In this document: in pieces, positions 14,667-64,000 of the stretch
How the letters are laid out: the number at the start of each line of letters is the position of its first letter
Position numbering within the stretch: position 1 is the first letter of the stretch
Assembly (NCBI RefSeq): GCF_007858255.1
Contig: NZ_VFEU01000002.1
Location: forward strand, 1 to 64,000
Origin: Pseudomonas rhodesiae
GTDB lineage: Bacteria > Pseudomonadota > Gammaproteobacteria > Pseudomonadales > Pseudomonadaceae
DNA length: 64,000 bases
Direction of reading: 5' to 3'
Notes under the pieces: model-generated
What the model saw: the letters and a program-made list of their open reading frames with translations, nothing else
The model's database searches: none
Told to the model about the DNA's origin: nothing
Program-made: the position numbers and the translations under genes

Positions 14667-15632
14667 ATGAGTAATTCGTACACCGACTATTCCCACGACC
14701 ATATGTTCCTTGGGAAATCACATGAAGAAAACGCCAAGCGTACCTTGTGGGTGGTGGCCCTGACCGTCGTAATGATGGTTGCTGAAATCACCGCAGGTTA
14801 TCTCACTGGCTCAATGGCGTTGCTTGCCGATGGTTTTCACATGGCAACGCATGCAGGTGCACTGGGCATAGCCGCAGCTGCTTACGGTTACGCGAAAAGA
14901 CATGCCTCAAGTGCTCGCTACAGTTTTGGAACTGGCAAGGTGGGAGACTTGGGTGGCTTCGCTTCTGCTCTGATTTTGGGACTGGTTTCCTTGGGAATTG
15001 CTGGAGAGTCGCTGTTTCGTCTCTTTCAACCGACTCAAATGCAATTCGGGACAGCGACTCTAATCGCAATTGTCGGACTAGCAGTGAATGTGGTGAGCGC
15101 GCTTTTGCTGTCTGGCGGTCATGATCATCACCATGGGCATGACCACGGCCACGATGAGTCTCACCATGCGCATGGTCACGACAATAATTTGCGCTCTGCA
15201 TACGTTCACGTCATTGCAGATGCACTGACTTCGGTTCTGGCCATCGCAGCCCTTCTTGCTGGTCGATACCTTGGTTGGGTATGGCTCGACCCTGCAATGG
15301 GGATTGTGGGTGCCGTTGTGATTGCACGCTGGGCTTGGTCGTTGATGCGGGTGACTTCGGGTGTATTGCTCGACCAGACAGATGATCATGTCGCTGAAGA
15401 GATTCGTGAACTGGTTGAGCGACCGGGAGATGCTTCGATCATTGATCTTCATGTCTGGCAGGTGGGGCCGCAAGCCCGCGCCGCGATTGTGAGTGTTCTG
15501 GGCAGCCCAGCAGTGAATGCAGAAAACATACGAGAACGGCTGGCGACGGTTCATGAGATCACTCATCTGACAGTTGAGTACCGCACGAAGTTGGGCGCTG
15601 ACTCACCCGATCAGGTCGCCGTTCTGGCTTAG
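14667..15632 (+). CDS. dmeF: DmeF-type cation diffusion facilitator (Co/Ni exporter)
   Basis: 321-residue CDF family protein with six membrane helices; it exchanges divalent cations for protons across the inner membrane. Helix II carries MALLADGFHMATHAGAL and helix V carries YVHVIADALTSVLAI, giving the HxxxH / HxxxD transport site typical of the DmeF group and not the HxxxD of zinc CDFs. A histidine-rich loop lies between helices IV and V (GGHDHHHGHDHGHDESHH, about residues 150-170), and the N-terminus reads YSHDHMF. The C-terminal domain (DLHVWQVGPQARAAIVSV) is cytoplasmic. It is cotranscribed with the RcnR-type repressor. Confidence 0.88.
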   Translation: MSNSYTDYSHDHMFLGKSHEENAKRTLWVVALTVVMMVAEITAGYLTGSMALLADGFHMATHAGALGIAAAAYGYAKRHASSARYSFGTGKVGDLGGFASALILGLVSLGIAGESLFRLFQPTQMQFGTATLIAIVGLAVNVVSALLLSGGHDHHHGHDHGHDESHHAHGHDNNLRSAYVHVIADALTSVLAIAALLAGRYLGWVWLDPAMGIVGAVVIARWAWSLMRVTSGVLLDQTDDHVAEEIRELVERPGDASIIDLHVWQVGPQARAAIVSVLGSPAVNAENIRERLATVHEITHLTVEYRTKLGADSPDQVAVLA

Positions 15633-21562: not shown

Positions 21563-23920
21563 TCAATCTATTCGGGTATTCCTCAATCTCAAAGCATTGA
21601 AAACTACAGATGCAGAACTGACGCTCATGGCTAACGCAGCGATCATTGGCGACAGAAGGTGTCCCGTCAGTGGATAGAGCAGGCCTGCGGCGAGGGGAAT
21701 ACCCATTGAGTTGTAAAGGAAGGCGAAACCTAAGTTTTGCCGCATGTTTTTTACCGTTGCAACCGAAAGTGCCCGTGCCCGTAAAATCCCCATCAGGTCG
21801 CCTTTTACCAGCGTGAGCTGCGCGCTATTCATCGCGACGTCAGTCCCTGTCCCCATGGCAATGCCCACATCAGCTCGCGCCAAGGCCGGTGCGTCGTTGA
21901 TACCGTCGCCGGCCATGGCAACCTTTCGACCGTATTGCTGGAGGTCGGCTACCAGACGCTCCTTGTCCTGAGGTTTCACTTCACCATGAACCTCTTCAAT
22001 ACCCATCTCCCTGGCGACAGCACGTGCGGTGGTGATCCCGTCTCCGGTGGCCATGATGATTTTTACGTTATCAGCCTTAAGCTTGGTGACTGCTTCTTTA
22101 GAGGTTGGTTTTATCGGGTCTGAGACCGCCAGTAACCCCGCCAAGACCCCGTCAACTGCTAGATAGATGATGCTGATGCCTTCAAGGCGCAACAACTCTG
22201 CACGGTCTTGTAAGACCTTAGTGCTCACGCCGGCAGCTTCCATAAGTGCAGTGTTGCCCAGCTGTACTTTCTTGCCACCAACGAGGCCACTGACTCCAAT
22301 CCCTGATCCGGACTCAAACGATTCAGGCTTGGTGAGCGCAACATTTTCAGTTCGGGCGTGATCGACGATGGCATGAGCCAAAGGATGTTCGCTGCCTTGA
22401 TCAAGGCTAGCGGCCAGTTGAAGCACATCGTGTGGGTTGAAATCTGGTGTGGCCTCCACACTGTGAAATACCGGCCGTCCCTCTGTCAGGGTCCCCGTTT
22501 TATCGACAATCAGTGTGTCGATCTTGCAGAGATTTTCGATGGCACTGGCATCCCTGAACAGCACACCCATACTGGCGGCTTTACCCGTCGAAACCATGAT
22601 CGACATGGGCGTTGCCAGACCCAGTGCACAGGGGCAAGCGATGATAAGTACGGCGACAGCGTTGATCAGGCCGAAGACCCAGCTGGGTTCAGGGCCGAAC
22701 AGTCCCCAGCCTAAGAGGGTCAGCAACGCAATCGCGATAACCGCCATCACAAAGTAGCCGGCGATCGAGTCGGCCATTCGTTGCATGGGCGCTTTGGAGC
22801 GTTGGGCTAGTGCGACCATTTGTACTATCTGCGACAGCATAGTGTCAGCGCCGACCTTTCGCGCCTCCATCACCAAGCTTCCATGAGTATTAAGCGTGGC
22901 ACCGATCAGACTATCCCCCGCTCTTTTCATGACCGGCACAGGTTCACCAGTGAGCATGGATTCATCCACCGCACTTTCTCCCTCGAGTACAGAGCCATCT
23001 ACTGGCACTTTTTCACCAGGTCTGACCCGCAAATGGTCTCCCAAGTGAACATGGGTAAGAGGAATGTCTTCCTCCTGACCATCATCATTGATCTTGCGTG
23101 CAGTTTTGGGAGACAGGCCTAGAAGGGACTTAATGGCGGCAGAGGTTTGTGAACGTGCTTTGAGCTCAAGAATTTGCCCAAGCAAGGTGAGCGAGATGAT
23201 GACCGCAGCGGCTTCGAAGTATACGCCGATGCGTCCATCTTGCATGAAGGTGGTGGGAAAACTTTGGGGAAATAGGGTTGCCGCGACGCTGTAAAGATAG
23301 GCTGCGGCAGTACCTAAACCAATCAGAGTCCACATGTTTGGACTGCGATTTCTAACAGATGCTATGCCTCTTACAAAAAAGGGCCAACCTGCCCATAAGG
23401 TGACCGGAGTGGCAAGAGCGAACTCGATCCAGTTTTGAATCGAACCATGGAAGAGTTGTAATGAGTGACCCGCCATGGCTAGAAGGGCCACCATTACGGT
23501 TAAAGGCAGCGACCACCAAAAGCGGCGGGTGAAATCCAGGAGCTCGGTTTTGTCATCGTCATCAAGCGCGGGCATGACCGGCTCTAATGTCATGCCACAT
23601 TTAGGGCAATTGCCGGGCCCTGGCTGTCTTATTTCCGGGTGCATAGGACAGGTAAACTCAGTGGCTACCTGTAGCGCGGGCTCTATAGCGGCGCTGCTGG
23701 GTTCAGCGCTGGGATGATTACCAATGTAGCGTTCTGGATCTGCCCGAAATTTCTCTTGGCATTTCTGGCTACAAAATTGATACGTCTGTCCTTGGTAAGA
23801 CTCGCCAAATTTACTTGGAGGTGTAACCGCCATACCGCACACCGGGTCACGTAGATCACCGTCATGGGGCGAGGCAGCGTGGGCGGGACCGTGATCGTGG
23901 TGGCTCGGTGTAGTGGGCAT
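21563..23920 (-). CDS. Copper-exporting P1B-type ATPase with YHS and heavy-metal-binding domains
   Basis: 785 residues; pumps Cu(I) out of the cytoplasm. Domains in order: a His-rich N-terminus ([16 protein letters not shown]); a YHS domain (DPVCGMAV...[12 protein letters not shown], about residues 25-65); a heavy-metal-binding motif ([20 protein letters not shown], about 90-110); membrane helices; the actuator motif LTGEPVPV; the copper site [12 protein letters not shown] in helix 6; the phosphorylation site [17 protein letters not shown]; and [16 protein letters not shown]. It has no classical HMA domain, the CopZ-like gene downstream taking that role. A DUF2933 membrane protein is encoded 2 bases upstream, so the two are coupled. 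Confidence 0.93.
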
Positions 23921-57262: not shown

Positions 57263-57328
57263 AAGCGAACAAAAATTTCACGCTCTGTGTTATATCGTAA
57301 CGAATTGTGTACGAGCAGGCGTGTTGGG

Positions 57329-59254
57329 ATGCAAGTGGATCTAGAAGCTGACGGCGCCTCGGTGGAGGGCCTGCCGCGTTTTCAGCAGGGGCTGTTCCAT
57401 GCCCGTCGATTGCGCCAGGCCGGTATCAGCCTGACGGTGCTGGCGGTGACCGGCTGGGTACTGGCGTTGTTTGTCGCGCTGTTTGCGCCGCTGTCGATCT
57501 GGCCGGTGGTGTTGATCAATTGCGCTTCGGCGTTGCTGGTGCTGGTGGCTGGGTTGCAATCGGCATGGTGGGTGGCGGATTGGCGCGCGCAGGCGCTGGA
57601 GCCGACGACGGCTGAGCCCAGCGCCTCCTCCGAGGCGTCCGACGGCTGGTCGGCGCGGCTGTTCGAGCGCTTCGGTAGCGGGCTACTGGCGCAGGTCGGT
57701 ACTCCGGTGTTGTGGCTGTGCGGTTGGTCGCTGCTGGCGCTGATCAGCGTGGTGGAGTTCTGGAACCTGACGTTGCCGGCCGCCCAGGTCGGCCAATCCG
57801 CCAGTATCGGCGCCGCGCTGGCCTTGGCCCTGGCGTTTGGCGTGCTGGTGTTCGAGCGTCGGTTGGCCCAGGAAACCTCCGCGCAATGGCCGGAAGCCGC
57901 GCAGCTGGCGCAGTTGTGCCGGGTGGCGATCGGTTGCCTGGTGATCAGTGCGGTTTGCCTGCTATTTGCCAGTGAGGCATCGGTGTGGCCACTGCGTCTG
58001 GCGACCCTTATTGGGTTGTTGCCGGCGCTGGTGGCGCTGGAGTTTTTGCTCAGGGCCGTGCTGTCGCTGTTCAGCCCGCGCCAGCCACGGCTGGAACCGC
58101 GCCTGCTGGCGCAGAGCTTTATCGCCGATCTGCTGCGTTGGCCGCCGCGCCCGTTGCTGGCGCTGCAGCACGAATTGCACAACCGCTTCGGCATCGATCT
58201 GCGCCAGATCTGGGCATTTACCTACATGCGCCGAGCGTTTTTACCGGTGTTGCTGGTGGTGCTGGCGATTGGTTGGGCGTTGACCGGTGTGCATGAAGTC
58301 CCGCTGCAAGGCCGTGGGATTTATGAGCGCTTCGGTAAACCGGTCGAGGTGTTCGGCCCTGGGCTGCACGCCGGATTGCCCTGGCCATTAGGGCGTGTGT
58401 TGCCAGTGGAAAACGGCGTGGTGCATGAGCTGGCGACCAGCGCCAGCGACGCCGCCGCCCCGGCACTGGCGCCCGCCGAAGGGCCGCCGCCGCTGATTGC
58501 CAATCGTCTTTGGGACGCCAGCCATGTGAACGACAAATCCCAGGTCATCGCCAGCCGTCGGGGCGACACCCAGGGCTTTCAGATCGTCAATATGGACGTG
58601 CGTTTCGTCTACCGCATCGGCCTCAGCGACCAGGCTGCGCTCGCCGCTATCTATAACAGCGCGGATGTGCCGACGCTGATCCGCAGCACCGCCAGCCGCA
58701 TCCTCGTGCATGAGTTTGCCTCGCGCACCCTTGATGAATTGCTCGGTGAGCAGCGCACCCGCCTGGCGGATGAAATCGGCCGCGCCGTGCAAGCAGATTT
58801 GCAGCGTCTGAACAGCGGGGTGGAAATCCTTGCCACGGTGGTGGAAGCCATCCACCCGCCGGCCGGCGCCGCCAACGCCTACCACGCCGTACAGGCCGCG
58901 CAGATCGGAGCCCAGGCCCTGATTGCCCGCGAACGTGGCGCCGCCAGCGAGCAGACCAACCAGGCCCAACTGCAAGCCAGCACCGCCCGTGACCAGGCCC
59001 AGGCCAGCGCTCGTGAAGTGAATGCCGCCGCACAGGCTGCGGACCTGCGTTTCACGGCCGAACAAAAGGCCTATGCCACGGCGGGCCGGGCGTTTGTGCT
59101 GGAGCAGTATTTCAGCCAGCTCAGCCAGGGCCTGGCCCACGCCAAGTTGCTCATTCTGGATCACCGTCTGGGCGCCGATGGCGCGCCGACCATCGATCTG
59201 CGTTCTTTCACTTTGCCGGCCGACCCCATGGCGCCGCGTAAAGCCGTGCAATAA
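57329..59254 (+). CDS. SPFH/HflK-like membrane protein, long form
   Basis: 641 residues from the ATG at 57329; the start is uncertain. Several N-terminal helices (about residues 36-80, 135-165, 198-235, 305-325) precede an SPFH/band-7 domain (TGVHEVPLQGRGIYERFGKP ... RIGLSDQAALAAIYNSADVP) and a C-terminal Ala/Gln-rich coiled coil (about 520-620). HflK normally has one helix, so the roughly 300-residue membrane region is an extra domain. It is the first of three SPFH genes followed by a P-type ATPase. Confidence 0.82.
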   Translation: MQVDLEADGASVEGLPRFQQGLFHARRLRQAGISLTVLAVTGWVLALFVALFAPLSIWPVVLINCASALLVLVAGLQSAWWVADWRAQALEPTTAEPSASSEASDGWSARLFERFGSGLLAQVGTPVLWLCGWSLLALISVVEFWNLTLPAAQVGQSASIGAALALALAFGVLVFERRLAQETSAQWPEAAQLAQLCRVAIGCLVISAVCLLFASEASVWPLRLATLIGLLPALVALEFLLRAVLSLFSPRQPRLEPRLLAQSFIADLLRWPPRPLLALQHELHNRFGIDLRQIWAFTYMRRAFLPVLLVVLAIGWALTGVHEVPLQGRGIYERFGKPVEVFGPGLHAGLPWPLGRVLPVENGVVHELATSASDAAAPALAPAEGPPPLIANRLWDASHVNDKSQVIASRRGDTQGFQIVNMDVRFVYRIGLSDQAALAAIYNSADVPTLIRSTASRILVHEFASRTLDELLGEQRTRLADEIGRAVQADLQRLNSGVEILATVVEAIHPPAGAANAYHAVQAAQIGAQALIARERGAASEQTNQAQLQASTARDQAQASAREVNAAAQAADLRFTAEQKAYATAGRAFVLEQYFSQLSQGLAHAKLLILDHRLGADGAPTIDLRSFTLPADPMAPRKAVQ

Positions 59255-59266
59255 GGAGTCTGTCTG

Positions 59267-60256
59267 TTGAGCGCTCATTCCCACGATCACGGTCATCACC
59301 ACGGCCATCATCACCACCATCACCATGGCGAGGAACACGCCGCCGGGCCGTTCCCTTGGCGGCGCATGGGCTGGGCCGCGTTGCTGGTGCTGTTTGCGCT
59401 GGCGGCGGCAAGCCTGGTGCAGGTGCGTTCCGGCGAGGCCACGGTGATCACCCGCTTCGGCAACCCGTCGCGGGTATTGCTGGAACCGGGCCTGGGCTGG
59501 CGCTGGCCGGCGCCGTTCGAAGCGGCGATCCCGGTGGACCTGCGCCTGCGCACCACTTCCAGCGGTTTGCAGGATGTGGGTACGCGCGATGGCCTGCGCA
59601 TCATCGTGCAGGCCTACGTGGCCTGGCAGGTGCAGGGTGACGCCGAGCATGTGCAGCGCTTTATGCGCGCGGTGCAGAACCAACCGGATGAAGCCGCGCG
59701 GCAGATTCGTACGTTTGTCGGTTCGGCGCTGGAAACCACTGCCGCCAGTTTCGACCTGTCCAGCCTGGTCAACACCGACGCCGGCCAGGTGCGTATCGCC
59801 GATTTCGAGGCGCAGTTGCGCCAGCAGATCGATCAACAACTGCTTGCCACGTACGGCGTGCGCGTGGCGCAGGTGGGGGTCGAACGGCTGACCTTGCCGT
59901 CGGTGACCCTCACCGCCACCGTCGACCGCATGCGCGCCGAGCGTGAAACCATTGCCACTGAACGTACCGCCGTGGGCAAGCGTGAAGCGGCGCAGATCCG
60001 TTCGGCCGCCGAGCGTGACGCACGGATCGTGCAAGCGGATGCCACGGTCAAGGCCGCCGATATCGAAGCCCAATCGCGGGTCGAAGCGGCGCAGATCTAC
60101 GGGCGCGCCTACGCCAGCAATCCGCAGTTGTATAACCTGCTGCGCTCGCTCGACACCCTGGGCACGGTGGTCACGCCGGGCAGCAAAATCATCCTGCGCA
60201 CCGATGCCGCGCCGTTTCGCGCGCTGGTGGACGGGCCCAAGGATGTTCAGCCATGA
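59267..60256 (+). CDS. SPFH/HflC-like protein with a His-rich N-terminus
   Basis: 329 residues from a TTG at 59267, supported by AAGGAG 8 bases upstream. The first 20 residues are mostly His (HSHDHGHHHGHHHHHHHGEE), then one helix (AALLVLFALAAASLV), an SPFH domain (SGEATVITRFGNPSRVL) and a coiled coil. The His tract points to metal binding, presumably on the cytoplasmic side. It lies in an operon with two other SPFH genes and a P1B-type ATPase. Confidence 0.85.
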   Translation: MSAHSHDHGHHHGHHHHHHHGEEHAAGPFPWRRMGWAALLVLFALAAASLVQVRSGEATVITRFGNPSRVLLEPGLGWRWPAPFEAAIPVDLRLRTTSSGLQDVGTRDGLRIIVQAYVAWQVQGDAEHVQRFMRAVQNQPDEAARQIRTFVGSALETTAASFDLSSLVNTDAGQVRIADFEAQLRQQIDQQLLATYGVRVAQVGVERLTLPSVTLTATVDRMRAERETIATERTAVGKREAAQIRSAAERDARIVQADATVKAADIEAQSRVEAAQIYGRAYASNPQLYNLLRSLDTLGTVVTPGSKIILRTDAAPFRALVDGPKDVQP

Positions 60257-61287
60257 CCGAGCGTAGCAGCCCGGACAGCCCCTGGATCCAGGCCGGACGC
60301 TTGACCTTTATGGCGCTGTACGCGGTGACGATGCTGGCGGCGTTGGCCTGGGCGTTTTCCAATGTGCGCCAGATCGACCCGCAGAATCGCGCGGTGGTGT
60401 TGCACTTCGGTGCGCTGGACCGCATCCAGAATGCCGGGTTGTTGCTGGCCTGGCCGCAGCCGTTCGAACAGGTGGTGTTGCTGCCGGCGGCGGATCGCGT
60501 GATCGAGCGTCGGGTGGAAGGGTTGTTGCGTTCGGACGCGGCACTCCAGGCCGACCGCGTGGCCAGTTTCGCCACGCCGCTCAGCGACGCTTTGGCCGGT
60601 TCCGGTTATCTGTTGACCGGCGATGCCGGCGTGGTGCAACTGGATGTGCGGGTGTTCTACAAGGTCACCGAACCCTATGCCTTTGTATTGCAGGGCGAAC
60701 ATGTGCTGCCCGCGCTGGATCGCCTGGTGACCCGCAGCGCGGTGGCGCTGACGGCGGCGCGGGACTTGGACACGATCCTGGTGGCCCGCCCGGAATTGAT
60801 CGGCAGTGACAACGGCGCCGCCGAACGCCGCGAGCGCTTGCGCGGCGATTTGGTGCAAGGCATTAACAAACGCCTGGCCGAGTTGACCGCCAGTGGGCTA
60901 GGCCTGGGTATCGAAGTCACCCGTGTGGATGTGCAATCGAGCCTGCCGGGCCCAGCGGTCAATGCCTTCAACGCGGTGCTCACCGCGAGCCAACAGGCCG
61001 ATAAAGCCGTGGCGAATGCGCGCACCGAAGCCGAGAAACTCACCCAGGCCGCCACCCAGCAGGCCGACCGGCTGGTGCAAGTGGCCCATGCCCAGGCTAG
61101 CGAACGCTTGGCCAATGCCCAGGCGCAAACCGCTGCGGTGGCCAGCCTGGCCCAGGTGAAAGATCCTGGCCTGCTGTTGCGCCTGTACCGCGAGCGCCTG
61201 CCGAAAATACTTGGCCAGGCCGGCTCCGTGACCACGGTCGATCCTAAAGACGACTCCCGCTTGATCATCCAGGGAGCCGAACAATGA
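60253..61287 (+). CDS. SPFH/HflK-like protein, short form
   Basis: 344 residues, ATGA overlap with the previous gene. One N-terminal helix (FMALYAVTMLAALAWAF), an SPFH domain (IDPQNRAVVLHFGALDRIQN, GDAGVVQLDVRVFYKVTEPY) and an Ala-rich coiled coil ending LIIQGAEQ. It probably forms a mixed ring with its neighbour, as HflK and HflC do around FtsH. It overlaps the ATPase gene by ATGA. Confidence 0.85.
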   Translation: MTERSSPDSPWIQAGRLTFMALYAVTMLAALAWAFSNVRQIDPQNRAVVLHFGALDRIQNAGLLLAWPQPFEQVVLLPAADRVIERRVEGLLRSDAALQADRVASFATPLSDALAGSGYLLTGDAGVVQLDVRVFYKVTEPYAFVLQGEHVLPALDRLVTRSAVALTAARDLDTILVARPELIGSDNGAAERRERLRGDLVQGINKRLAELTASGLGLGIEVTRVDVQSSLPGPAVNAFNAVLTASQQADKAVANARTEAEKLTQAATQQADRLVQVAHAQASERLANAQAQTAAVASLAQVKDPGLLLRLYRERLPKILGQAGSVTTVDPKDDSRLIIQGAEQ

Positions 61288-63170
61288 GCACAGCGATGCT
61301 GACGTCCGCCGAGCAGCGCAGCGCAGCGCGGCAATTGACCCTGGCGATGCTGGCGCTGGGCTTATTGATCCTGGGCCTGGTGTGGCGCTGGCTGGCGCCG
61401 GACCAGAGCGGGGTGAGCCAGTTGCTGCTGGGCGTGGCCTCGCTGCTGGTGGCGGTGCCGGTGATGCGTTCGGCCTGGTACAGCCTGCGTTTTCCCAGCC
61501 TGCATGGCATCACCGACCAACTGATCGCCTTGGCCATGCTCGGCGCCTGGGCCACTGGCGATCTGCTGACCGCGGCGTTGCTGCCGATCATCATGATTTT
61601 CGGCCATGTGTTGGAAGAACGCAGTGTGATCGGCTCCCAAGAGGCGATCCACGCCCTGGGCAAGCTGACCCGCAGCCACGCGCGGCTTGTGCAGGCCGAC
61701 GGCAGCATTCAGGAAGTGAACAACGCCACGCTGAACACCGGCGATATCGTCGAAGTGCGCGCGGGCGACCGGGTGCCAGCCGATGGCGTGGTGCTGTCGG
61801 GCCAGGCCAGCCTGGATACGGCGCCCATCACCGGTGAATCGGTGCCACTGGAGGCCAGCGCCGGTGTGCAGGTGTTTGGCGGGGCGATCAATCTGGATGG
61901 CTTGTTGCGTCTTGAAGTGACGCGTACCGGGCATGAGTCGACCTTGGGCAAAGTCATTGCATTGATGCAGAACGCGGAACGCTCCAAGCCGCCGATCACG
62001 CGGCTGCTGGAGCGCTATGCGGGCAGTTACATGGTGCTGGTGTTGCTGTTGGCAGCGGTCACCTGGTTTGTGACCAACGACGCCCAGGCGATGCTCGCCG
62101 TGCTGGTGGCGGCGTGCCCGTGTGCGTTGGTGTTGTCGGCACCGGCCACGGCGATTGCCGGGATTGCCGTGGCGGCGCGCCACGGGATTTTGATTCGCAG
62201 CTCGGCATTTCTAGAGGAGTTGGCGGACCTGACGTCCCTGGTGGTCGACAAGACCGGCACCCTGACCTTTGGCACCCTGCGCCTGCAATCCATCGAAACC
62301 ACTGCGCCCGATCGGCAGGTGTTGCTGAACCTGGCAGCCAGCCTGGGCTCGGCCAGCAGCCATCCGGTCAGCCGGGCGTTGGCGGGGTTGGCGACGCAGG
62401 AACAGATGTGGGTGCTGACCGACATCCGCGAACGCCAGGGCCTGGGCGTAGTGGCACAGACCGAGGAGGGCGAAGCGGCCCTGGGACGCCCTGAGTTGTT
62501 CGAGCAATTGGGCATCGTGACCACCGCCGTGCCGACCCATGACGGCCCGATTGCCGGGTTGGCGCTGAACGGGCAATTTTTGGCCTGGCTGCTGCTGGCC
62601 GACAGCGTCAAACCGGAGGCCCGCCAGGCTCTGCAAGAGCTGCGCGAGCTGGGCCTGGGGCGTCAGTTGCTGCTCACCGGCGACCGCCAAAGTGTCGCCG
62701 ACAGCCTGGCGTTGGAGGTGGGCATCAGTGATGTCGCCGCCCAGGCGCTGCCGGAGGACAAGCTCAACCGCGTGCTGGCCGAGATCGATAGCGGCTTCCG
62801 GCCAATGGTGGTGGGTGATGGCATCAACGACAGCCTGGCACTCAAGGCCGGCGTGGTCGGCGTGGCCATGGGCGCGGGCGGGGCGGATATCGCGCTGGCC
62901 TCGGCGGACGTGGTGCTGATCGGCAGCGATCTGCGGCGCTTGGGCACCTGTGTGCGCTTGAGTCGCCAGTGCCGGCAGACGTTGCAGGTCAATGTGATCA
63001 TTGGCCTGGGCTGGACGCTGGCCATCGTCGTGTTCGCGGCCTTCGGCTGGCTGGGCGCAGCGGGGGCGATGATTGCGGCGCTGTTGCATAACCTCAGCAC
63101 GCTACTGGTACTGGGTAATGCCGGGCGTTTGCTGCGGTTTCAGGAGCCGCTGCTGAAACCGGAAGAATAA
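61284..63170 (+). CDS. P1B-type metal-transporting ATPase without N-terminal metal-binding domain
   Basis: 628 residues. Actuator ITGESVPLE, helix-6 site AACPCALVLSAPAT (CPC), phosphorylation site [19 protein letters not shown] (the HP motif) and GDGINDSLALKAGVVG are all present. Helix 8 reads LLHNLSTLLVLGNAGRLL. No HMA or His-rich N-terminus is present; the His tract is instead on the SPFH partner encoded two genes upstream. The metal cannot be told: CPC occurs in Cu and Zn/Cd pumps. It ends the operon. Confidence 0.87.
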   Translation: MSTAMLTSAEQRSAARQLTLAMLALGLLILGLVWRWLAPDQSGVSQLLLGVASLLVAVPVMRSAWYSLRFPSLHGITDQLIALAMLGAWATGDLLTAALLPIIMIFGHVLEERSVIGSQEAIHALGKLTRSHARLVQADGSIQEVNNATLNTGDIVEVRAGDRVPADGVVLSGQASLDTAPITGESVPLEASAGVQVFGGAINLDGLLRLEVTRTGHESTLGKVIALMQNAERSKPPITRLLERYAGSYMVLVLLLAAVTWFVTNDAQAMLAVLVAACPCALVLSAPATAIAGIAVAARHGILIRSSAFLEELADLTSLVVDKTGTLTFGTLRLQSIETTAPDRQVLLNLAASLGSASSHPVSRALAGLATQEQMWVLTDIRERQGLGVVAQTEEGEAALGRPELFEQLGIVTTAVPTHDGPIAGLALNGQFLAWLLLADSVKPEARQALQELRELGLGRQLLLTGDRQSVADSLALEVGISDVAAQALPEDKLNRVLAEIDSGFRPMVVGDGINDSLALKAGVVGVAMGAGGADIALASADVVLIGSDLRRLGTCVRLSRQCRQTLQVNVIIGLGWTLAIVVFAAFGWLGAAGAMIAALLHNLSTLLVLGNAGRLLRFQEPLLKPEE

Positions 63171-63287: not shown

Positions 63288-63539
63288 ATGAATATCAAAC
63301 AAGCCGTTTCCGGTGCTGCCCTGGCGATCGCCGCCGCTTCCATGTTTGCCGGTGTCGCCACCCAGGCACAAGCGGCTGATGCTCAGGTGCATTGCTACGG
63401 CGTCACGTCTTGCAAAGGCATGAACGACTGCAAGACTGCGGAAAACGCCTGCAAAGGCCAGGCGGTGTGCAAGGGCCACGGTTTCAAGGCCATGACCAAG
63501 GCGGAATGCGATAAGGCGGGCGGCAAAGTCGGCGAATAA
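63288..63539 (+). CDS. bufA: Bufferin-type small secreted protein BufA (DUF2282)
   Basis: 83 residues with a signal peptide ([18 protein letters not shown]). The mature part has the DUF2282 cysteines: [28 protein letters not shown] and a last Cys near KAECDK. Bufferins are small ribosomal peptides whose cysteines are changed by a DUF692 (MNIO) enzyme and then bind copper in the periplasm. The DUF692 gene follows 62 bp later. A TGTAAC motif near 63197 resembles an ECF-sigma promoter element. Confidence 0.88.
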
Positions 63540-63601: not shown

Positions 63602-64000
63602 ATGATGGCCACCTCTCTTCCCTTCCTGGGTTACGGCCTGGGTCTACGCAACGAATATTACGAACAGATTCTTGAGCAATCCCCTGCAGTGGATTGGTTT
63701 GAAGTGATCTCCGAGAATTACCTGGTGCAGGGTGGCAAAGCCTTGTACTACCTGGACGCCATCGCTGAGCGCTACCCATTGGTGATGCACGGCGTGTCCC
63801 TGTCCATCGGTGGGCCCCATGCCCTCGATTTCGATTATCTGAAGCAGATCAAACAGCTCGCCGAGCGCATCCAGCCGGCATGGGTGTCCGACCATTTGTG
63901 CTGGAGCCGCGGCAACGCGCACCAGTTGCATGACCTGCTGCCGTTGCCCTACACCGAGGAAAGCCTTTATTACGTGGCCGGCCGCGTTCGTCAGGTGCAG
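63602..64000 (+). CDS. bufB: BufB DUF692/MNIO enzyme, N-terminal part
   Basis: The open frame from ATG 63602 (a second ATG at 63605) runs off the window: 133 codons. It begins FLGYGLGLRNEYYEQIL, with VDWFEVISENYLV and LVMHGVSLSIGGPHALDFDY, the typical start of DUF692 multinuclear iron oxidative enzymes. It is expected to install thiooxazole-type rings at BufA cysteines, probably with a bufC partner outside the window. CGGAG lies at the right distance upstream. Confidence 0.9.
   Translation, partial: MMATSLPFLGYGLGLRNEYYEQILEQSPAVDWFEVISENYLVQGGKALYYLDAIAERYPLVMHGVSLSIGGPHALDFDYLKQIKQLAERIQPAWVSDHLCWSRGNAHQLHDLLPLPYTEESLYYVAGRVRQVQ

Follow-up and report, generated by a model that had tools for sequence, protein, structure and literature searches.

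Why should a bacterium keep three proteins of the SPFH family, to which HflK and HflC belong, in one operon with a P1B-type metal pump? This arrangement occupies positions 57329–63170 of a 64,000-nucleotide stretch of Pseudomonas rhodesiae DNA (contig NZ_VFEU01000002.1; "the window" denotes this whole stretch). A sequence-only reading had proposed that the SPFH proteins form a membrane platform that delivers metal to the pump. We favor, with a probability of roughly 0.6, a zinc-starvation module repressed by Zur, in which an HmtA-type pump would be made together with its own three-part scaffold of the HflK/HflC type. The roles of bacterial SPFH proteins are described as mostly unclear (PMC12005517). 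A conserved pump-scaffold operon provides SPFH assemblies with a well-defined candidate client and with a metal-binding handle.

A four-gene unit with a fixed order

The operon comprises four tightly packed open reading frames on the + strand, in the order SPFH1, SPFH2, SPFH3 and P1B ATPase, and is preceded by a Zur-like operator:

57289–57301, + strand: Zur-like operator GTTATATCGTAAC, 27 nt upstream of the SPFH1 ATG
57329–59254, + strand: SPFH1, 641 aa, HflK-side SPFH protein with ATG start; added N-terminal domain with multiple transmembrane (TM) helices (~residues 20–250), linker, further TM helix, then the SPFH domain
59267–60256, + strand: SPFH2, 329 aa, HflC-side SPFH protein with TTG start; His-rich N-terminal tail and a single TM helix at ~residues 35–53
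59267–59338, + strand: His-rich tail of SPFH2, with 14 His among its first 24 residues; predicted to be cytosolic
60253–61287, + strand: SPFH3, 344 aa, HflK-side sister of SPFH1; ATGA overlap with SPFH2
61284–63170, + strand: HmtA-type P1B ATPase, 628 aa, with CPC in TM6 and HNLST in TM8; ATGA overlap with SPFH3

The sequence-only reading had called the genes translationally linked, and they are tightly packed: 12 nt separate SPFH1 from SPFH2, whose TTG start is preceded by AAGGAG, and 4-nt ATGA overlaps occur at both 60253 and 61284. Its observations of a 13-His tract at the N-terminus of one SPFH protein (SPFH2) and of an added membrane region on another (SPFH1, hydrophobic over ~residues 20–250) likewise hold. 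Non-ATG starts of SPFH2, as chosen by our script, recur in all 20 divergent loci described below (TTG in 16, GTG in 4) and may reflect tuned translation.

The unit is conserved. Of 149 genomes examined in the genus, 87 contain SPFH2 orthologs (≥73% identity), six further genomes with weak SPFH2 matches being left out, and the ATPase was found in the identical 87. In every one of these the two genes lie on one contig and one strand, 1030–1190 bp apart. All four genes occur together in 49/49 loci of a first set (20 divergent and 29 close; the loci of the 29 close relatives and of L057 end inside the operon), and they keep their order on one strand in all 80 named loci, which were retained from 479 relatives and found with SPFH2. 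The order had been named as a check, and genes separable in most genomes as an argument against the platform; SPFH2 and the ATPase were never found apart in the 87 genomes, nor the four genes in the 80 loci, although SPFH1 and SPFH3 were not searched alone.

Outside the genus, SPFH2 was found in 19 of 148 genomes of the family and, at a strict E of 1e-50, in 1 of 369 genomes of the class. A phylum-wide search with the ATPase matched 9 of 299 genomes, three of them outside the family and one of these three outside the class. At the three loci outside the family (L178–L180) the four-gene order is complete, L178 having an SPFH2 match of only 163 residues and a frame that looks interrupted. A related genus carries the ATPase in 13 of 25 genomes, with all four genes in each of the 12 loci taken at length. 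Because the class search was strict and the phylum search found the operon in other families, we do not claim a narrow distribution.

The His-rich start of SPFH2, of a type known for zinc binding, was present in 49/49 loci of the first set and in 99/99 loci of a second, partly overlapping set, so that the tract itself is conserved, as the sequence-only reading had asked to be checked. The script found 97 of the 99 tails; the two zeros (L178 and L180) were start-site errors, settled by reading the frames. The 99 loci, and likewise the 100 upstream regions analyzed below, count three genomes twice (L078/L188, L080/L184 and L083/L187) and rely on script-chosen starts. Tail length and sequence vary strongly, while the His enrichment is constant. 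A separate idea, that the tail sits on either SPFH2 or the ATPase, was dropped, as both apparently tail-less SPFH2 proteins have a tail on frame reading.

In the window, the tail is followed by Arg-Arg and the single TM helix. The positive-inside rule, applied to this Arg-Arg, and the orientation of HflK/C, which face the periplasm (PMC2636767), together place the tail on the predicted cytosolic side.

These data bear on the simplest alternative, in which four Zur-controlled genes are merely co-regulated without a physical link and the His tract either buffers zinc passively or arose as a low-complexity accident. Such a reading would accommodate the strong variation of the tails, and the literature found reports no interaction between pump and SPFH proteins. 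Against it stand the four-gene order kept across classes, the ATGA overlaps at two junctions and a His enrichment that survives sequence turnover, and we consider it quite improbable.

The SPFH trio and the pump compared with their known relatives

All three SPFH proteins pass the Pfam gathering score of Band_7 (23.6 bits) with 75.6 (SPFH1), 107 (SPFH2) and 63.7 bits (SPFH3). Band_7 is the only Pfam family to do so in these proteins; DUF1490, the mark of PacL-type scaffolds, is not among them. None reaches the NCBIfam cut-offs for HflK/HflC (SPFH1 59.9/159.4, SPFH2 91.2/134.4, SPFH3 93/159.4). The genome contains eight Band_7 matches in total, among them a canonical HflK and HflC side by side, which pass TIGR01933 and TIGR01932 with 377.8 and 283.5. 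The likeness of the trio to HflK-HflC consists in the SPFH domain and in its position in the SPFH tree, where SPFH1 and SPFH3 come out as sisters on the HflK side, SPFH2 on that of HflC (the tree has long branches, and only this grouping is used). Foldseek additionally matched SPFH1 to the HflK/C-FtsH structure 9cz2 (E 8.9e-6). Apart from its sub-cut-off scores, the trio differs by having three members instead of two, a His tail, an added TM domain and a metal pump as its fixed neighbor. Filing the operon under PacL platforms or under HflK/C would be wrong, since the defining features of both were tested and are absent.

Could the trio nevertheless serve FtsH? As an adaptor to this zinc protease, comparable to HflK/C with other substrates, it would protect the pump, or else different membrane proteins made in zinc starvation, or hand them over to FtsH when zinc returns, with the His tail sensing cytosolic zinc and triggering the handover. 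The HflK-side and HflC-side placement in the tree is in line with such a role, as is the binding of FtsH by HflK/C and YbbK-type SPFH proteins (PMC2636767). The corresponding P. aeruginosa genes introduced below (PA2437–2439, equivalent to PA14_33110, 33080 and 33070) are annotated as FtsH modulators (PMC9431628). However, the trio scores below the very cut-offs that the canonical pair passes, and because this pair sits elsewhere in the genome, the FtsH role is already filled. We regard an adaptor function as unlikely.

The added membrane domain of SPFH1 (57380–58084) drew a side observation: rows 1–14 of a VIA-align search with it were all zinc transporters of the cation diffusion facilitator (CDF) family. 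The underlying AlphaFold2 (AF2) model has a mean predicted local distance difference test score (pLDDT) of ~60, and only its N-terminal domain is fairly confident (block means of 67–91 for residues 11–90 and 121–260). The best CDF row, 8f6k_B, reached a Z of 14.7 over 195 residues at an rmsd of 3.7, a level in a range (Z 14) that helical models often reach. In Foldseek, the best ZnT row among the matches listed had an E of 1.4; that listing consists of ranked rows only, and the absence of other folds from it carries no meaning. The metal site of CDF proteins is formed by conserved Asp/His residues in TM2 and TM5, and no conserved Asp or His was present in TM2/TM5 of SPFH1 among 42 sequences. 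Profile comparison (hhalign) with five CDF proteins of the same genome gave P 0.44, like reversed decoys, and neither Pfam nor a PDB sequence search supported a CDF assignment of the N-terminus. We thus rejected the domain as a CDF transporter and retain the structural match as a weak lead. A kinship of SPFH1 TM1–2 with the first helices of the ATPase was also discarded (hhalign P 0.029, not significant over the comparisons made).

The pump itself scores above the TIGR01525 cut-off (527.6 vs 346.25 bits) and above that of the broader subfamily TIGR01512 (491.7/313.5). Its N-terminus has no GMxCxxC and no His in the first 60 residues, and a low-confidence AF2 model (mean pLDDT ~60), used solely for helix start positions, has the first helix starting at residue 8. 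The absence of a metal-binding domain, which the sequence-only reading had attributed to the pump, is therefore true of the window ATPase, but a bare N-terminus is not shared by the whole family: among the 99 loci, 25 carry an ATPase tail with ≥4 His, 22 have 1–3 and 52, including the window, have none. The tail is found in L180 and L181, the furthest lineages from the window to have one, with 0 and 1 His in L178 and L179. The bare N-terminus is thus lineage-specific, and because such distant lineages carry the tail, its absence in the window reads as a local loss.

CPC is invariant in the 13 HmtA-type ATPases compared; in TM8, HNLST occurs in 11 of them and HNFST or HNIST in the other two. 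The comparison also covered eight further P1B-type paralogs from the same genome, none of which combines CPC with H-N-x-S-T, and the HmtA-type ATPases form a separate clade (this tree, too, has long branches, and only the separateness of the clade is used). In an alignment to solved structures, the TM8 motif lies over HEGST of sCoaT and ADTGAT of ZntA. The pump shares the P1B core with the exporters of subclasses P1B-2 (ZntA/CadA) and P1B-4 (CoaT/CtpD), CPC with ZntA, and the H and ST of TM8 with sCoaT. It differs from P1B-2 in having Thr578 and His602 where ZntA has Lys (K693, TM7) and Asp (D714, TM8), and in lacking an N-terminal domain. P1B-4 pumps are marked by SPC in TM6 and HEGG/ST in TM8, and a paralog in the same genome (L224) has SPC and HEGST; the window ATPase has CPC in place of SPC, and HNLST, with Asn603 replacing the Glu of sCoaT.

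A Zur-like promoter and the hmtA cluster of P. aeruginosa

Sites agreeing with a Zur consensus at 10 or more of 12 positions are present in 81 of 100 upstream regions, starting 39–119 nt before the chosen start, and absent from 19. Shuffled sequences gave 0.96/100 and GC-matched real windows a mean of 3.7 of 94.8; after removal of similar upstream regions the box remained in 41 of 54. Across the P. rhodesiae genome, GTTATANNRTAAC has 7 matches at five places, compared with 2 matches for a reversed control pattern. Two of these places adjoin folE2 and zigA, and two others have no assigned zinc gene. Two perfect palindromes lie ~10 and 12 kb past the window; one of them separates FolE2 from an N-acetylmuramoyl-L-alanine amidase-like gene, and the other precedes ZigA. 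FolE2 and ZigA score above their NCBIfam cut-offs, and the P. aeruginosa zur regulon is described as including FolE2 and amidase (PMC9431628). The conserved promoter box thus marks the operon as a putative member of the Zur regulon.

By gene order, the operon is the PA2439–PA2434 (hmtA) cluster of P. aeruginosa, with HmtA being PA2435. Both share the succession HflK-like, HflC-like, Hfl-like and P-type ATPase, and the window pump lies downstream in an HflK/HflC-like cluster behind a Zur-like site, as expected of an HmtA type. In P. aeruginosa, PA2434–PA2439 are upregulated 5.6- to 14.4-fold in a znuA mutant, with a weak Zur site and PA2435 named HmtA (PMC4542158, Table 2). The operon proteins that were detected are higher under Zn depletion, significantly only for some (PA2438 and PA2439; PMC11761036), and binding of Zur to the PA2439 promoter shows as a shift when Zn is present (PMC8531726). 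HmtA has been described as a Zn and Cu importer (PMC10393844, PMC8456098).

The two clusters are not identical. PA2436 lies in between in P. aeruginosa, and the window has no such gene; in 5/5 examined loci near P. aeruginosa, a small extra gene sits between SPFH3 and the ATPase, the place expected for PA2436. The relatives examined for this gene also have the ATPase His tail that the window lacks. P. aeruginosa itself is outside the 80 named loci, and five candidate genomes proved by their azurin (84–88% identical) to be other than P. aeruginosa. The products of the small genes look signal-peptide-like by eye (L183:6642–7091, L184:6360–6863 and L187:5471–5956 on the – strand); two were scanned and gave no Pfam match.

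Genes PA14_33110, 33080 and 33070 have also been designated PaFlo5–7 in a deletion study of P. aeruginosa SPFH genes (PMC13086221), which reports their operon from P. syringae and, of ten reference genomes of Pseudomonas, from two, vs 87 of 149 genomes of one genus here; P. syringae loci L096 and L106 carry the window's operon. The main text of that study contains no EDTA, TPEN, chelator, copper, Zur or ATPase, and zinc starvation thus stands out as a condition without sign of use there. Among the matches listed in our literature searches, none described the SPFH2 His tail or a pump-scaffold complex, those for P1B pumps included no SPFH protein, and those naming both HmtA and HflK concerned only zinc-dependent expression. 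The operon is therefore already in print, but none of the papers found connects scaffold, tail and pump.

Several points weigh against a zinc-starvation module. The match to PA2439–PA2434 is one of gene order. In P. aeruginosa, hmtA mRNA is reported as constantly low and not repressed by Zn, with a mainly Cu-related role suggested (PMC8531726), and Zur is said to bind all uptake promoters except that of hmtA, the import claim itself needing confirmation (PMC10393844). Deletion of SPFH genes in P. aeruginosa caused slight phenotypes only (PMC13086221). The mycobacterial P1B platform PacL1-CtpC does not require flotillin (PMC9374683). Finally, the module is dispensable, since 62 of 149 genomes of the genus have neither SPFH2 nor the ATPase.

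From co-expression to a proposed pump platform

We nevertheless favor a starvation-induced pump platform because the operon repeats the logic of PacL1-CtpC with another scaffold and the opposite metal status. In that system, the gene of the P1B pump neighbors that of a membrane scaffold whose His motif is cytosolic; the scaffold forms complexes with the pump and maintains its level, and foci and high-molecular-weight complexes were demonstrated (PMC9374683). The window likewise encodes a membrane scaffold with a predicted cytosolic His metal motif beside a P1B ATPase. The scaffold of PacL1-CtpC is a small DUF1490 protein acting in efflux at zinc excess, whereas the window has an SPFH trio and points to zinc starvation.

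Under zinc starvation, relief from Zur would lead to joint production of the three SPFH proteins and the pump, which would move Zn2+ and, by report for HmtA, Cu. Two HflK-like and one HflC-like protein would then probably form a mixed cage or ring on the periplasmic side, enclosing a patch of membrane that holds the pump and thereby stabilizing and concentrating it. The His tail of SPFH2 would bind Zn (or Cu) where the pump opens to the cytosol. Should the pump import, as reported for HmtA, the tail would accept or buffer the incoming metal and could exert feedback on the pump; should it export, the tail would be a metal donor. The proposal of a platform delivering metal to the pump accordingly survives in part. 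The conserved four-gene unit, the conserved tract and the precedent of PacL1-CtpC (PMC9374683) speak for the platform, but if the pump imports, as reported for HmtA, the tail would receive metal, and delivery to the pump is one of two possible directions.

Well-studied P1B pumps are exporters, and CcoI, which supplies cytochrome oxidase, provides a model for the corresponding alternative: an exporting pump that feeds Zn or Cu to periplasmic or membrane metalloproteins in scarcity, with cytosolic His tails collecting the metal and the periplasmic cage receiving it. A donor role agrees with cytosolic His tails, PacL1-CtpC is itself a platform for export (PMC9374683), and the import claim awaits confirmation, as noted above. 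HmtA overexpression, however, is reviewed as causing Zn and Cu hypersensitivity with raised cell metal (PMC10393844, PMC8456098), and expelling zinc during starvation is counter-intuitive, which makes export doubtful in our view.

A stronger form of the platform is tentative, and we hold it to be possible rather than probable: in a new kind of machine for metal transport, a P1B pump of its own subclass could be permanently built into a three-component SPFH cage. The His tails in the cytosol, carried by SPFH2 at every locus seen and by the pump in some lineages, would pass or take zinc at the cytosolic mouth, and the transporter-like six-TM domain of SPFH1, without a metal site, would serve as a dock. 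If true, this would be the SPFH counterpart of PacL platforms, devoted to starvation rather than excess. The operon also offers an independent parallel to PacL-CtpC platforms, and HmtA as a reported importer still awaits confirmation (PMC10393844).

The surroundings of the operon contain further genes of metal metabolism. Just downstream of the pump lie a BufA2-type bufferin (63288–63539, above its NCBIfam cut-off), a copper-binding precursor of a ribosomally synthesized and post-translationally modified peptide, and the MNIO maturase BufB (63602–64000, partial, running past the window), followed by an HvfC-like protein under cut-off. A BufA gene accompanies the operon in 10 of 80 named loci and in 5 of 8 closer relatives (L190–L197); none of the 20 divergent loci has one within the ~1.8 kb covered downstream (no downstream DNA for L057). 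By these counts we rejected the bufferin genes as part of the module and regard them as a lineage trait. An apparent Zur island (L213:5653–13911) lies on the same contig ~5–13 kb past the window end. It includes both palindromes and genes for a dihydroorotase, a gamma-carbonic-anhydrase-like protein, an AztA-like ABC ATPase (under cut-off), FolE2, the amidase-like protein and ZigA. Within the window, a second P1B ATPase (21584–23335, – strand) is Cu-type by its motifs (CPC, YN, MSxSS) and has five His in the first 60 residues, and a CDF transporter (14667–15629, + strand) scores above the cut-off of DmeF (Co/Ni efflux).

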